A DNA stretch of 64,000 bases from Macrocystis pyrifera (Eukaryota; Sar; Phaeophyceae; Laminariales; Laminariaceae). The notes under the pieces were generated by a model. That model was not told where the DNA came from and did not search any database. It saw only the letters and a list, made by a program, of their open reading frames with translations. The DNA is taken from the NCBI GenBank assembly GCA_031763025.1, contig JASSKH010000007.1, positions 12,940,454 through 13,004,453 on the forward strand, read 5' to 3'. Positions 11,946-60,502 of this stretch are shown here, piece by piece (position 1 is the stretch's first letter; every line of letters begins with the position of its first letter). The position numbers and the translations under genes were made by a program.

Positions 11946-43504
<31,559 letters not shown>

Positions 43505-53318: not shown

Positions 53319-54292
53319 CTACGCTCTTCTCGACAGACTGCCGTCCACCGCAAGATTCTGACCGGTGACAGAACCGGCGTGGTTCGACAGCAAGAAGGAC
53401 ACCGCAGACGCCGCGTCCTTGCCGGACCGCTTCCGCGTCGACGACGACCTCCCGCCGGCGGCGCCGCCCGCGCCGCTCCTCCCGCTCCCCTCTGGCACGC
53501 TCACAGCGTTAACGCGCACGTGCGGCCACGAGCTCGCGGCGAGAGAGTGGGTAAGCCGAGCAAGCCCACCCCCCGCGGTCGCCAGCGTCTCGCTGTTAAT
53601 CCCGGCCACGCGCGAGGCCGTGTACACGACGTTCACGATAGCACCGCCGCCACCGCCAGCCCCGACCGTGCCCTTCGAGCAGGCCGCCTGCAAGAGCGGC
53701 AGCGCGTGCTTCGTGGCGAGCATGGGCTCCGTCAGCGCGCCGGTAAGCGCGTCCGCCCAGTCCGACGGCTCCAGGTCCTCAAGCGGGTTGGACGAGACGG
53801 CAGGCATGCTACCGCGCCCCCCCCCCCCCGCCCCGCCCGCGTCTCCACCGCCGCCACTAGCGATACTGCCTCTCTGCTGCTGTTGAGACCCGGCGCCGGT
53901 AGAGGCCGCGGTGTTACACACAAGCCCGTCCATGCCACCAAACGACTCCTGGCACAGCTCCGCCAAGCGACACGCCCCATCCTCGTCCCCCGGCCCACCC
54001 ATATCGAAGAAAACGAGACGCCCCGCGGTAAACGCATCCACGTTAGGGGTGCCCTCCCCACCCCCCTGAGCCCGGCCGCGGCAGCCTCGTCGTTGGACAT
54101 GCCTCGGTCGGCCGCGATCACCGAAGCCCCGTCCATGAGGAGGCGTTTCACGATCGCGGGGCCGCACCCGCGCAGCGCCCCCGTCACCGCAACCTTGCGG
54201 CCCCGGAGCCCCTGCAGGGATTTGACGGTGCTCTTGGCCTTCGTCAGGTCCGCCTTCAGTCCGTCGATCTCTCCCTGCATCTGCGTCTTCAG
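53319..54292 (-). CDS. Coiled coil plus SDR-like Rossmann domain (possible myosin tail)
   Basis: Reading begins after the acceptor-like TAACTACCCAG with LKTQMQGEIDGLKADLTKAK, a near-perfect heptad pattern. It passes into GRKVAVTGALRGCGPAIVKR, the TGxxxGxG nucleotide-binding motif of classical SDRs. In a second frame, after six C at 54061-54066 (one base missing), come LVFFDMGG, FGGMDGLVCNTAAS (in place of NNAG), AIVNVVYTASRVAGI, ARLTHSLAASSWPHVRVNAV, and AVSFLLSNHAGSVTGQNLAV with a TAG stop at 53319. By alignment the catalytic Tyr and Lys positions are Leu and Gly, so oxidoreductase activity is doubtful. A separate gene could start at the Met in the coiled coil (54280). Otherwise this is the last exon of the myosin. 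Confidence 0.8.
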
Positions 54293-54473
54293 CTGGGTAG
54301 TTAGTTAGGTGGGTGGGTGGTCGGGTTTCGAAGAGGGAGGCGCGGGGTTGGGGGGGGGGAGGGGGAGGGGAAGGTTTGAGACAAATGACGTGGCGATGGG
54401 CGATCGGTTGCAGATCATGGCACTTGGGGTGTCGATCGTTCGTGTGATAGGACGGATTGAGATTGGCGAGGCG

Positions 54474-54475
<2 letters not shown>

Positions 54476-54518
<43 letters not shown>

Positions 54519-54530
54519 GGGGGGGGGGAT
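54476..54530. repeat. Poly(G) tract
   Basis: About 40 consecutive G, then TGGGGGGGGG. It is flanked on both sides by related sequence (ATGGCACTTGGGGTGTCGAT and ATGACGCTCGGGGTTTCCAT), so two similar units each abut a G tract. Confidence 0.9.
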
Positions 54531-54683
54531 GGGTTCCGGAAACAGTCTTGTTTTGCTGTGGCGATTGTGTGGGGCTAGGCTCATGACGCTCGGGGTTTCC
54601 ATCGTTCGTGCGAGAGCCGGGATTCGGGGAAGGCGGACGGAGGGAAAAGGAGAGAAGGGCTGGAGATGAAATCGTTTTTCGTA

Positions 54684-54788
54684 TTACGGGGGACCATAGT
54701 AAATAGGACCAAATATTGATACTAAAAATAGGCAAATACATAGGTTTTTGTGTGTACCGTAGGTCCTATTTACTATGGTCCCCCGTGA
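54684..54788. mobile_element. MITE family 1 copy
   Basis: TTACGGGGGACCATAG and ATGGTCCCCCGTGA arms. It lies between the SDR exon and the myosin IQ exon. Confidence 0.85.
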
Positions 54789-55489
54789 TACCGTAGTACA
54801 TATGAATAGTGGCGCCCGTCTGGCCCATGGCGCTCCGTGAAGTCGAGTGTTTTCCAACTGCGCTACGAATACAAGGCAATACAAGTACATGCCAGTCAAA
54901 CACCCAAAATACTGCTGTACCGCCATGCTTCTGCTCACGTTGTGCTATATATATATACCTGGTAGTATATATAATATATATATATCTATATATACCTGGT
55001 AGTATATATATAATATTCATTCGCCGAACGGACATGTGCAACGCGATGCGGTAGAGATGCACCGCGCGCGTCGCATCGCACCGCACCCCGCCAGCCGCTT
55101 CCATGCAAAACTTGGAAACCCCTTTAGTCCCAACGACAAAAAAAAAAAAAAAACAACCCTCCTGAACAAAAAACAATGCCCCCCCCCCCCCCCCCAACGC
55201 CATCGCCGCCTCGATCGCTGTGGTTCTTCCTACTCAACGCTCTTCCCGATAACTACACCCCAACTCATCATCCGTTCCTCCCTCTGGACTCCATCCTCCA
55301 TACCTTGAAAAAAGCACCCGCTGGGTTTCTACTCGTGACGTATAACTCATGCGCGACCAGGCCACTATCACGCTAGGCGGTAGTCGGCATTTTGCCATCT
55401 AAGGGGGACAGTGGATCGCACCGCCCCGAGACAGTTGTTCAAACATCCCCTACTACTGCTGCAAAAAACATCCCCTACTACTGGTGCTA

Positions 55490-55595
55490 TAGACGTGGGA
55501 CCACAGTAAATAGGACCAAATATTGTTAGTAAAAATACGTAAATATCTAGGTTTTTATGTACACCATAGGTCCTGTTTAATATGGACCCCCGTAA
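55490..55595. mobile_element. MITE family 1 copy
   Basis: TAGACGTGGGACCACAG and ATGGACCCCCGTAA arms, left end decayed. Confidence 0.8.
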
Positions 55596-56011
55596 TAATA
55601 CCAAGGGAAAACAAGCAAACATACAGCAGCAGCAGCAGCAGCAGCAATTAACACCAAATACGGTTTGAAACACACACACAAGCAAAGGGGGGATGGGATA
55701 TACCTGGTGTTTGGGCGAGTACATCGCAGTTTTCTTTTGAAACAAAAAAAAAAAAAAGTTTCCTCGAAACGTCGTTGCATATCTCACAGGGGGGCTAAAA
55801 TACCAAACAAAATGCCCCGACAAGGGCCGGAAGCCAACCCCACCCCCCACCTACAACGCCCCACCCACCTACCAACCCACCCCAATCCAGCAGTGGGTCG
55901 TTCCTCTGTAGTGCCCGCTGCCCGTACATACACGTGCCGGTAAGGTCGCTCGGCGTACATGGGAATAGCCAGTGCGGCATTGTACGGAGTAGTTAGTGCC
56001 GGATGCCGGTA

Positions 56012-56115
56012 TTACGGAGGACCACAGTAAATAGCACCTACGGTAACACAAAAACCTATATATTTCCCTATTTTTACGAACAAAATTTGGTCCTATTTAC
56101 TGTGGTCCCCCGTAA
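56012..56115. mobile_element. MITE family 1 copy
   Basis: TTACGGAGGACCACAG and TGTGGTCCCCCGTAA arms, just downstream of the myosin IQ exon. Confidence 0.85.
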
Positions 56116-56181
56116 TAAAAGTATAGTAGTGCCTGTATTGCTGGCTGCTGACGCACACCGGCACTCCAGAGGAACCATTAC

Positions 56182-59100
56182 CGTCACTGCTCCCCACCTG
56201 CTCAAGCCTGACCGAAAGGGCTGCTCCTCCAGCTGCTTCTGCCTCTCCTCTTCGGCGAGCCGGAGCGTCTCGGCCTCCTGGGCCTCCTTCTCCTTGCGCT
56301 TGCGCACGAACTCCTGCATCTCCCGCCCCACCGTGGCCCGCGTGTTCTCCCCCCTCACCCACGCCTGGACGGCGACAGCGGCCCTGCGCTCCTTGAGGAA
56401 CTTCTTGCGCACCAGCCAGCAGCGAATCGACGTCTGCAGCTTGGTGATCGAGTTCGCGATCATGGCCGTCCTGAATGAGACGGGTGATGATTCACGGGAG
56501 TGGATGATGCAAGGTTGATGGATGGTAGGGTGGCGGGTTGACGGGTGGACGGATCATGGTTTGAGGAAGGTAGCTTCTTACCAAGCATTCGAGAAACGAG
56601 GTTGACACACCCTGTGAACGACACCAACACAAAAGCTGACCCTCGGTTAACCCCCAAGCCGATCAGACCCAATCACACCAGCGGCTACTGTAGCGTTAGC
56701 CCCTTTGGTCCTGTGCACAGCAGGGTGTGTTGTGCCAACAACTTCTCTCGAATAAACTGAAAAGCTATGCACACCTCCGACAGACCAGCGACTCCCACAG
56801 TTCACGATCTGTATGACATGATCTGTTCCCGACATTGCATGATCTGTATGACACCTAACAGCGCATGTTCCCCGGTGGGAGCCGCACAAATCTGAATGAT
56901 CTAGCTCATGTTTTCTGGGTCGGATCTGTACCGTAGACAGATCCCCCACAACCTTTCACAACGGCAGGTAGCCGAGGAACTAAATCATCTATCTGTAGAT
57001 AGATCATCATCTGCCCCGAGTGTGATAGTTTTCGCCGGGTGGGCTATGGGTGATACTTAGTGTATTATGGGGTGATAAACAAATACCTGGTATATAATAT
57101 AATATATATTTATAATTTATACATACATTTGTAATATACATATATTTATAATTTATACATATATTTTTAATACATACATGTGTAAGGTGGGTGAACTACA
57201 GTACGTACATATGAAGTGATAAATGAAAAGGGACGGGAACGTTGCGGACGGACGGGAACAAACCGACACTACTGGTAAAAACACGAATTCGAGGACGGCC
57301 GAAGCAAGAAAAACATGCAAAACAGGCGAAAAAAAAAAAAAAGAAGAGCCACATGACCACCTGACCACCCACCCCCTTCAAGAAGCAGGCCGCTCGCGGA
57401 AAGAAAACGGAAGAACGCATGAAACAACTTCATCACGTCGCTGGTCAAAATAAAACAAAAACAAAAACAAAACATGGAAGCTATTTTTTATCGCACGCGA
57501 GAAAGGAAAGAAGCCTCGCCGTACCTGAGCCTCTCTATGCTGTTGAACGCCTTCTGTTGGAAGAACACTTTGGTCAGACCCATCTGCATTCCCACGTCGC
57601 GGCACAGCGCCATGAACTGGTCGTCTGTGGCGGCCTTGGCAGGAGCCTTAGTCACCTTCTCCACGATGGACACAACCAGCGCCTTGCACACTGCTCGTTC
57701 CGACTCCTGGTCGATCTCTCCTCCGTCCTGACAAATAAAAAATACGTAGCGAGAGAGATAATGAGAGACTTCAATGCAACACGCTCACAAAAATGCGTGG
57801 CAAGAGTCAGACCAACCCAAGCCAGTAATCGCCCACATGTTTCATGGCCGGACAAGATAACCTTGTGCGGGCTGGGCTAGGCAGGGAGGCGCACAGATTG
57901 CCCCTTGCTGTGCCGCAGTTTGGTCAAAATAACTTTAAAATATATTGGCCTGCCAGTCCCTCCCTACCCCCCCCCCCCCCCCCCGCGCCGCCCTCTTTTC
58001 CCCCTCCGATGCCTCACCTGTGCGCAGTTCCTGTAGGCGTTCTCCACCACCAGCGGAGCAAGCACGCCGTATCGGTCTATGAACTCCTGTAGACCGCGAA
58101 TGGGAATTAAAAAAATCGAGAGACACGGAGACGAAGAGAGGATAAATACGAGAGGGAAAGACAAAAGAGAGAGCAGGGCCTACCGAAGGCGACGCGATTG
58201 ATTGAGACTAATTAACACGAAAACGAAAGACAGCAAAAGCAAGACTTCAGAACTGAAACAAAAACGAAGGACACCAGAACCGATCAGCATGAAAGAAAAA
58301 CAGGTTCGCACATCCGAAAAGCAAAAAAAACAAATTTAAAGTTCGAGGCATTGACATTCCTTTCTTCGTCTTCCTCTACCCCCCCCCCCCCCCCCCCTCT
58401 CCTGACAACAAAAACAACACAATGTTACGCTCTGTCGCCCCCCCCCCCCCCCTCCCGTCCCTCCCCCCCCCTCCCGTCCCTCCCCCCCCCTCCCCTAGGT
58501 CCCTTCGTCTATCCGCACCTGAATACCCAGGCGGACGGGGAACCCAGCGCGGGCCACCCTCACCACCTCCAGCACGCCGGCGTTCCTCAGCTGCTCCGCG
58601 ATACGCTCGAACGAAAAGTTGGCCGGAGACAGGTCATCGTTCGGCTTGATCGTGCGCACGTAGTGCGGATGCGTCTTGTCCACCGTCGAGACCAGATTGT
58701 TCAGGTTCTCGCGGAACTGCGCGCCCAGCGATTTGGCCCCGATGGTGGTACGTCTCCCGCGTCGAGCCGCGCCGCCGCCACTGGCGGCGGTGGTTCCGCC
58801 CCCGCCGTCCGATCGACGGGGATTTCCCTTCACCTGAGGAAGCCAGCGTTGTCAGAGGAGGGGGGGGGGGTGGGGAGGGTGTCATGGACAGAAAGGACGA
58901 AAGCGAGTGCGATGAAGAGCCTCCATGTGTTCCGCCAAAGTATAAACCGTTCTTGTATGAACTTCAGGTTGCAGTAGACAACAGCAGCAGGCAATCGACA
59001 ACGAACAGCAGCAGCAGCAGCAGCAGGCAATCGACAACGAACAGCAGCAGCAGCAGCAGCAGCAGCGAAAACGAGGCCCACCGCACAAAACAAAAAATCA

Positions 59101-59531
59101 ACAACAACATTTTCAACGCCATGGTCGACATAAGCCAACCAACCACCAAATTATCCCACCAACCAACCAACCAACCAACAAATTATCCAACCAACCAACC
59201 AAACAACCAATGACTAACAAGCAACCATCCCACCTTCGTCGATTTGGCCTCGATCTCGCCCATGAGCACCGTGAAGTCAGACCCGGACGAAAGCAGCATG
59301 TCAATCCCCTCCTGCTGCAGCGTGTCCCTGTTCTTCTCGATGATCCCGTCCGTGCTGTAGACCACCTTGCCGGCGTAGTGCCGGACGCAGAACTTGTGCT
59401 CCACGCGCATCTTGGGCGCCAGCTGGAATCGGTCGTGCCCCTCGCACTTCTTGTACATCTCCCGGGCGAACCGGTCGTCGGTCGATTTCCCCAGGAGGCA
59501 CTGATATAAATTCATCACAACGACGAAAAGC

Positions 59532-59562
<31 letters not shown>

Positions 59563-60502
59563 GGGGCAGCAGCAGCAGCAGCGTCAACAACAACAACAAT
59601 GGCAACAGCAGCAATCGCAGCGACAAAACAAACACCACCACACCACCACCACCATCAACACCACCACCAACACCAACACAGCAACACCACCACCACCACC
59701 AACAACAACAACGACAACAACACCGCCACCAACATCAACAAAATGAACAAGGGAGGTTGGGGTGATGTTGGTGAGGAGGGGGCATTGACGGGGGCGGTGG
59801 CGGTAGGACTCGCAAGAGAGGGTAGAGATCAACGGCGGAAGGAGAGAAGTGCCCCACTGCGAAAGTGCGCCATCAAGACAGCTAGCCGGTGTAGGCCGCA
59901 CGTTTTCTTGGGGGGGGAGGGGGGGGGTTCGGCGGGGCACGGCGAGCAAATAAAACGTGTTCGCTGCTCGATTTTTTTTCCAGCTGAAAGAGAGAGAGAG
60001 GCATCTCGCTTTGACTTCAGGTACAGCAGTAGGTTGTCTCGAAAAGGGAGGATGCAGTCTTCCGAAGGCGAGGCCACCTTCTCCACACGTGAAACGTGAA
60101 GGACGGATTTCTACATTCATTACTTTGAGGACAACGAGATTCTTAGAACGCAGCCTACCCACACTGGCACCGCTGTACACCTCCTGGCCACCCTAACAGT
60201 ATCCCAACACTGCTGTACGCCTGCATACACTAACAATGCTGTCTGTACACCTCCTGGCCACCCTAACCCTATCCCAACACTGCTGTACGCTTCCTGGGCA
60301 CCCTCCCCTACCTCAGCGCAATAAAAATATGGGTGTCCAACACCCCCCCCCCAAAAAAAGCCGGGGGTTTCCGGAGCCGACGCACCTGCTCATCCAGGGT
60401 CGGGATGATCCCGTTCGGCTTCTTGTCGATGAGCTCGATGCAGTCCTTGTTGTCCGGGAATTCTATGAAGTTCCACTCGATCTTCTCGCGCTCATACTCC
60501 TC
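56182..60502 (-). CDS. Myosin heavy chain, partial (C-terminal motor, converter, IQ motifs)
   Basis: Actin-based ATP-driven motor. Six exons join in phase: 60502-60386, 59500-59234, 58833-58519, 58086-58018, 57727-57525, 56470-56198 (or 56182). They read [57 protein letters not shown], a basic loop 2 with a Gly-rich insert, the actin-binding helix [43 protein letters not shown], the converter [20 protein letters not shown], then IQ motifs ([14 protein letters not shown] and [11 protein letters not shown]) and a charged helix ending ERQKQLEEQ. The upstream exons with the P-loop and switch regions are outside the window, beyond an intron of at least 3.5 kb. The myosin class cannot be decided from this part. 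The tail may continue into the coiled coil and SDR exon at 54292. Confidence 0.93.
56198..56470 (-). CDS. Myosin neck exon (IQ motifs)
   Basis: The acceptor GTCTCATTCAG precedes G|ACGGCC, in phase with the converter exon ([10 protein letters not shown]). Donor choices are AGCAG|GTGGGG at 56198 (phase 2) or ACG|GTAATG at 56182 (phase 0). Only the second is in phase with the coiled-coil/SDR exon. Confidence 0.88.
56588..56752. mobile_element. MITE family 3 copy in myosin intron
   Basis: Arms TTCGAGAAACGAGGTTGACA and GTGCCAACAACTTCTCTCGA around GCCGATCAGACCCAATCAC, shared with 23820-23962. Confidence 0.75.
57060..57190. repeat. AT-rich TATATTTATAATTTATACAT repeat
   Basis: A low-complexity AT stretch in the myosin intron, containing one ATACCTGGTATAT motif. 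Confidence 0.85.
57525..57727 (-). CDS. Myosin converter exon
   Basis: Acceptor TTATTTGTCAG, donor CTCAG|GTACGG, phase 2. It encodes [33 protein letters not shown] and [14 protein letters not shown]. The MGLTKVFF block is diagnostic for the converter. Confidence 0.93.
58018..58086 (-). CDS. Myosin exon ([12 protein letters not shown])
   Basis: 69 nt, acceptor GGTCTACAG, donor CAG|GTGAGG, phase 0. Follows FPVRLGIQ as in other myosins. Confidence 0.92.
58519..58833 (-). CDS. Myosin exon (loop 2 and actin-binding helix)
   Basis: Acceptor GGCTTCCTCAG, donor CAG|GTGCGG, phase 0, 105 codons. It contains an Arg/Gly-rich loop 2, [26 protein letters not shown] and the LRNAGVLE helix. Confidence 0.94.
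58980..59075. repeat. CAG-rich tandem repeat in myosin intron
   Basis: CAGCAGGCAATCGACAACGAA units with growing (CAG)n runs. Next to it, 59160-59210 is (CCAA)n. Confidence 0.85.
59234..59500 (-). CDS. Myosin exon ([12 protein letters not shown])
   Basis: Acceptor TTTATATCAG, donor AAG|GTGGGA, phase 0, 89 codons. [18 protein letters not shown] is typical of the lower 50-kDa region. Confidence 0.94.
60170..60310. repeat. Tandem repeat, period 70 bp, two copies
   Basis: CTGTACACCTCCTGGCCACC starts at 60173 and 60243. Both units continue with TATCCCAACACTGCTGTACG. Confidence 0.85.
60386..60502 (-). CDS. Myosin exon ([13 protein letters not shown])
   Basis: Acceptor GTTTTGACAG, donor CAG|GTGCGT, phase 0, 39 codons. 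It is the most 5' myosin exon seen here. Confidence 0.94.

Follow-up and report, generated by a model that had tools for sequence, protein, structure and literature searches.

We analysed a window of 64 kb of the Macrocystis pyrifera genome (C221:12940454-13004453) and, with it, the whole assembly of 537 Mb in 223 contigs. The minus strand of the window holds a myosin gene, its 3' half only, and the last exon of this gene encodes a coiled coil followed by a domain of the short-chain dehydrogenase/reductase (SDR) type. The subject of this work is the apparent fusion of both parts, which has a counterpart in a paralogous gene on contig C223. The window gene was modelled by hand from homology and splice signals, using 20 kb of extra contig, and the model has 13 exons with an assumed first Met. 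The upstream part of the gene is complete, with six further motor exons beyond the window edge, at 73046-65493 on its scale. The features found inside the window are these:

60386..60502, minus strand: myosin motor exon, ending PTLDEQ (gene model; 80% identity to the C223 paralogue in that stretch)
59234..59500, minus strand: myosin motor exon (gene model and C223 comparison)
58519..58833, minus strand: myosin motor exon (gene model; 80% identity to C223 over 75 amino acids)
58018..58086, minus strand: myosin motor/converter exon (gene model)
57525..57727, minus strand: myosin converter exon (gene model and C223 comparison)
56182..56470, minus strand: exon of the IQ neck and a charged helix, with an uncertain 3' boundary (Pfam IQ, donor scores)
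54293..56181, minus strand: putative 1.9-kb intron that contains a ~110-nt repeat with inverted ends three times (gene model)
54681-54791, 55488-55597 and 56009-56117: the ~110-nt repeat copies in the intron before the SDR exon
54068..54292, minus strand: coiled coil and first SDR part, frame A, with the signature TGALRGCG (homologous to one C223 exon)
54052..54067, minus strand: G-rich run inside which the reading frame changes (frame analysis)
53319..54065, minus strand: rest of the SDR, frame B, to the stop codon; its nominal start overlaps the G-run (adh_short_C2, E 5.1e-16)

The ~110-nt repeat has inverted ends (TATTACGG...GGTCC), occurs in several introns of both myosin genes and resembles a miniature transposon. 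The window gene also has one GC-AG intron, whose donor is AAG/GCGAGT at 68341 on the extended window scale.

The window model is open for 928 codons ahead of its last exon and matches Myosin_head of Pfam (PF00063) with 727 bits (E 2.7e-218, cut-off 33.3). The stretches GESGAGKT, NSSRFGK and DIFGFE, which we take to be the myosin P-loop and switches, are present in the window model as well as in that of C223. An earlier note, made from the letters of the window, had recognised an IQ neck and a charged helix ending KQLEEQ in the exon 56470-56182 of the minus strand. This was confirmed by Pfam IQ, which scored 34.1 bits with the exon (E 1.5e-08) and 26.0 bits with the gene model, above the cut-off of 20.3.

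The coding sequence of the last exon, read on the minus strand from 54292, gives LKTQMQGEIDGLKADLTKAKSTVKSLQ, with a hydrophobic residue every 3-4 positions (by eye), and then the SDR start TGALRGCG. The first SDR part matched adh_short with 24.3 bits (E 2.5e-05), just under the Pfam cut-off of 26.6, and the remainder matched adh_short_C2 with 59.4 bits; the stop codon at 53319 lies just past the SDR C terminus. We found no second full copy of this SDR exon in the genome, where the sole other match was of 41 nt on C190.

The second locus carries most of the argument. When 74 residues spanning the coil and the beginning of the SDR were searched against the genome, four rows resulted, and the clear one beyond the window itself was C223:1369346-1369540 (42% over 65 amino acids, E 3.3e-7), the two remaining rows being weak (E 0.44 and 8.5). 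A genome search with Myosin_head placed a myosin head at C223:1357638-1368601, on the same strand and just upstream of this SDR match. There, the stop-free open frame 1368917-1369651 runs from the converter through the neck and the coil to the Rossmann start KRKIVVCGGAGGIG, and the modelled exon 1368968-1369558 holds neck, coil and SDR start without an intron between the parts. The C223 model, of 8 exons and 1,189 amino acids, is intact and ends right after the SDR C terminus. Pfam recognised Myosin_head at residues 76-825 (695.1 bits, E 1.2e-208) and adh_short_C2 at residues 959-1183 (78.4 bits, E 8.1e-22, cut-off 27).

That a single exon of C223 covers the neck, the coil and the beginning of the SDR is a strong argument against two tandem genes. 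With Myosin_head and adh_short_C2 both in one model there, the case for the fusion can do without the doubtful splice at the window locus. The earlier note had preferred a fusion to tandem genes and on this point it was right. Going by the sequences of both loci, a myosin-SDR fusion almost certainly exists as a gene family, and the best explanation of what we found is probably a myosin motor with a pseudo-SDR tail, of the same build at both loci.

We also observed a repeat at C223:1372309-1372968, where the last codons of the C223 gene, with the beginning of its 3' region, are found in five more copies. These copies are spaced 94-170 nt, have 64-82% identity to a reference copy over 73 nt and several of them open with a G-run.

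The motors of both genes are homologous exon by exon. The identity between the window gene and C223 is 511/807 (63.3%) in the motor, 24/75 (32.0%) in the neck, 19/48 (39.6%) in the coil and 80/238 (33.6%) in the SDR, and for the latter 200 random pairings averaged 8.5% and never exceeded 13.9%. Only one intron position is in common, out of 12 modelled for the window gene and 7 for C223. This divergence, together with the single common intron position, points to an old duplication. By a hand count the genome has about 22 myosin clusters, and besides the two fusions we fetched 10 of the other 20. In the 16 recomputed motor segments C223 was closer to the window gene than to the other fetched myosins matched there, which fits one fusion before the duplication; one of the 10 fetched clusters (L045) gave no match. 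None of these 10 showed an SDR part at E 1e-5, a weak test because the known tails themselves pair only at E 0.001. From the homologous neck-coil-SDR junction, it is most likely that the fusion arose once, before the old duplication.

When the genome was searched with the whole C223 SDR, the listed matches were the two exons of C223 itself, the window (E 0.05) and an exon of an ordinary SDR (C131, E 0.14). Since the window copy was visible only at E 0.05, a third tail that diverged equally could escape, and therefore two fusion genes are a lower bound. The genome search with PF00106, in which 19 of 113 candidates were scored and 19 places listed, included neither fusion and misses such divergent tails. 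The nearest ordinary SDR gene was considered as donor of the tail and rejected, the weak C131 row being all that was found.

Several observations weigh against the reading as a myosin motor with a pseudo-SDR tail. In the comparison of the two copies, which lies entirely inside one genome, the later SDR parts matched each other weakly when compared directly (30%, E 0.001). The nonsynonymous divergence (dN) was 0.75 in the SDR versus 0.30 in the motor, with synonymous divergence (dS) above 1 in both, and the higher dN of the SDR suggests a weaker constraint on the tail. The IQ match of C223 was below the cut-off (16.4 versus 20.3 bits).

The remaining adverse points concern the window locus itself. 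The earlier note had proposed splicing from 56182 to 54292, and the phase is indeed kept (phase 0), but the sites are poor: the donor ACG/GTAATG at 56182 scored 1.3 versus 5.1-13.2 for the 17 other GT donors of both genes, and the acceptor at 54292 scored 1.1 versus 5.0-14.6 for the 18 other acceptors, with small matrices that were trained on those same 17 donors and 18 acceptors and are biased in their favour. In the 1.9-kb intron, 24 of the 82 AGs scored as high as 54292, and the AG at 54280 scored 2.0; a branch-like stretch, CTAACTAAC, precedes 54292 (by eye). There is a strong donor, CAG/GTGGGG at 56198 (10.6), but its phase, 2, does not fit the acceptor at 54292. A scan between 56198 and 54292 for an intermediate exon of 4-399 nt, with an acceptor of at least 2 and a donor of at least 5, found none, thresholds that leave weaker exons or exon pairs possible. 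Aligned with C223, the window model is longer by 14 columns at the junction (Q and 13 more residues), and the true window junction may lie elsewhere. Just 4 codons of the window exon are upstream of Met 54280, one of them identical to C223, and with such a short overlap homology says little on the exon start. The splice junction is the weakest point at this locus and, on the sequence of the window, the fusion there is strongly inferred rather than proven.

The SDR exon, moreover, spans two frames, frame A from 54292 and frame B to 53319, and switches between them at about 54067-54052, in the G-rich run. The coil, the SDR and the stop after its C terminus had been correctly noticed in the earlier note; this change had been passed over, and the exon is not one frame. 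A window model of 1,002 amino acids that ends at the SDR start scored 18.0 bits with adh_short, below the cut-off. The frame change and the weak splice sites together suggest that the window copy may be damaged. Frame B, at 54060-53319, has 246 codons and 0 internal stops, and 0.2% of 2,000 base shuffles were likewise stop-free. The GC content at third positions was 0.89 in frame A and 0.81 in frame B, in line with coding sequence here (0.85 in exons 1-12 and 0.81 in C223). Changes in the length of a G-run are a common assembly error, and the window copy may be either intact with such an error or losing its tail. We tried a tiny intron at the frame change and discarded it: an 8-nt GT..AG alone fits (by eye), too short to believe. 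The intron of the C223 SDR (C223:1369558) aligns to about the same place as the frame change, a coincidence that may mark an old intron loss.

Among the alternatives, the one that survives best accepts the ancestral fusion, real in C223, and holds that the SDR tail of the window copy is lost or being lost and that this copy makes a short-tailed motor. It agrees with the frame change, with a donor and an acceptor that score lowest among those of both genes and with the repeat insertions in the intron. It has to face, however, the 246 stop-free codons of frame B, an SDR that is recognised on either side of the change (one side just under the cut-off) and a kind of error that assemblies commonly make at G-runs, and we regard this alternative as rather unlikely.

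Much less probable is that the window holds two tandem genes, a short-tailed myosin and an SDR gene that starts at Met 54280 and has a spliced 5' leader. The parts are indeed 1.9 kb apart with a weak donor and a weak acceptor, and the neck frame, if unspliced, continues to a stop at 56074. Nevertheless, in C223 the neck, coil and SDR start are in one stop-free exon, the SDR does not have the residues of an active enzyme, and the genome search with the C223 SDR listed no stand-alone gene of such type.

The myosin motor with a pseudo-SDR tail, then, raises the question of what the tail retains of the enzyme. The C223 SDR matched 102 distinct sequences of solved structures at E <=1e-5, the best being PtmO8 (5f1p, E 1.7e-15), and the window SDR, with X across the frame change, matched 51 at E <=0.001, again with 5f1p as the best (E 5.6e-09) and mostly via its C-terminal half. 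In NCBIfam the matches were to general SDRs of the glucose-dehydrogenase/FabG type, and all 25 models listed per tail were below the cut-off. The dinucleotide signature of SDRs is a motif of the TGxxxGxG type, which reads TGALRGCG in the window and CGGAGGIG in C223, where Thr is changed to Cys. Both copies have identical GxxxGxG glycines (G38, G42 and G44), D62 after strand 2, and the DGLV stretch with the next Asn, N117 (numbered by the first row). NAD(H) preference is signalled by an Asp where strand 2 ends. Judging from these motifs, whether the tail would still bind a dinucleotide is evenly balanced.

The catalytic positions of classical SDRs are N-S-Y-K, and active ones need the Ser and a Tyr-x-x-x-Lys. 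Tyr-x-x-x-Lys is absent between strands 5 and 6 from both tails; this segment has 45 residues in C223, with 0 Tyr and 0 Lys, and 48 in the window copy, with 1 Tyr and 0 Lys. In the 5f1p alignments (by eye), the catalytic positions read E-V-G-V for C223 and A-Y-L-G for the window copy. The tail has very probably lost catalysis, that is, it is a predicted pseudoenzyme, as the earlier note had suggested; the nucleotide sensing also suggested there we can only infer. An active dehydrogenase carried by the motor is very improbable: the signature is kept and the fold-wide matches are to active SDRs, but neither copy has the Tyr-x-x-x-Lys and none of the NCBIfam models listed reaches its cut-off. Finally, although the frame change reveals a defect in the assembly or the gene, the chance that the whole architecture is an assembly artefact is negligible, because a chimera would not yield the same order at two loci on two contigs with one intron position in common.

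In the rest of the window, the plus-strand open frames 22842-24323 and 41855-42511 contain short protein-like stretches that suggest at least one plus-strand gene, and neither had a Pfam match at E 0.01. Long poly-G/poly-C is present at ~24.0-24.3 kb and ~39.4 kb, read as poly-Gly and poly-Pro frames. Scans of the 64 kb for tRNAs and Rfam families found nothing. A search for PAP2/haloperoxidase had 0 matches, which says little where exons are split.

Protist myosins are known for unusual tails. Among solved motors the C223 head was closest to 7dhw (E 2.3e-152, 'motor domain of myosin') and 7kch (E 2.2e-149, 'unconventional myosin heavy chain'); myosin-Va came next (from E 5.4e-146), before myosin II, in this ranking by sequence match. 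The order of motor, IQ and coil is common to the fusion genes and to class V and related myosins (the V-like group of PMC3942036). The DIL tail of classes V/XI is absent among the 7 Pfam families that matched the C223 model at E 0.01, and the SDR is present instead. In overall plan the fusion genes resemble class XXX, for which passages of PMC3942036 and PMC2375034 give an N-terminal SH3-like part, IQ motifs, a coiled coil and one C-terminal domain. The same passages report varied tails in stramenopile myosins (PX, PH, WW, Tub, CBS, HEAT and others); those of classes XXX/XXI are PX, PH, WW and Tub, whereas the fusion genes have an SDR. Classes XXX and XXI are expanded in Pseudofungi, according to passages of PMC5795050 on the myosins of this group, and no SDR tail occurs in those passages. 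Orphan myosins common to Ectocarpus siliculosus and Saccharina japonica are mentioned in part of PMC5583752, and the window and C223 genes could belong to them.

Among the papers listed by full-text literature searches, we saw none on a myosin that carries an SDR or any other oxidoreductase domain of the Rossmann kind. The word 'dehydrogenase' is absent from the main text of three myosin surveys, 'Rossmann' from that of two of them and 'adh_short' from that of one; this search covered main texts, and the tail lists sit in supplements and figures. Myosin-SDR proteins may already have been annotated automatically elsewhere.

Regarding the tail, PtmO8 (5f1p) and the FabG-type reductases have the fold-wide match and the dinucleotide signature in common with it, whereas the catalytic Tyr and Lys of classical SDRs are missing from both copies. 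We know of no fusion to a motor of the SDR-fold regulators HSCARG/NMRAL1, NmrA and MAT2B. The passages of PMC3793261 on such proteins describe CtBP, HSCARG and NmrA as SDR-type regulators that combine protein contact with NAD(P) sensing; HSCARG/NMRAL1, NmrA and MAT2B have the SDR type in common with the myosin tails, and MAT2B, according to the same passages, retains the S-Y-K triad, unlike both tails.

Our best reading of the pseudo-SDR tail, from its sequence, is that it would serve for dimerisation, ligand sensing or cargo binding. Light chains of the calmodulin type would bind the IQ neck. The SDR fold usually forms dimers or tetramers, and the coil and the SDR could join two motors, giving a molecule with two heads and a globular tail. 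Cargo docking or regulation of the motor might then fall to the NAD-binding pocket or its surface, and a tail that binds NAD(H) without turnover could be a dimeriser, a docking site for cargo or a switch for the motor. It is a tentative idea, and a somewhat doubtful one, that the dead SDR tail, kept in two old paralogues, binds NAD(H) and in this way lets the redox state of the cell act on actin-based transport, on the dimerisation of the motor or on the choice of cargo.

The joining of a motor to a tail that appears to be a catalytically dead SDR is a combination that we did not find described for any myosin. If the tail does bind NAD(H), these genes would make it possible to test directly if a motor of the cytoskeleton can sense the redox state.

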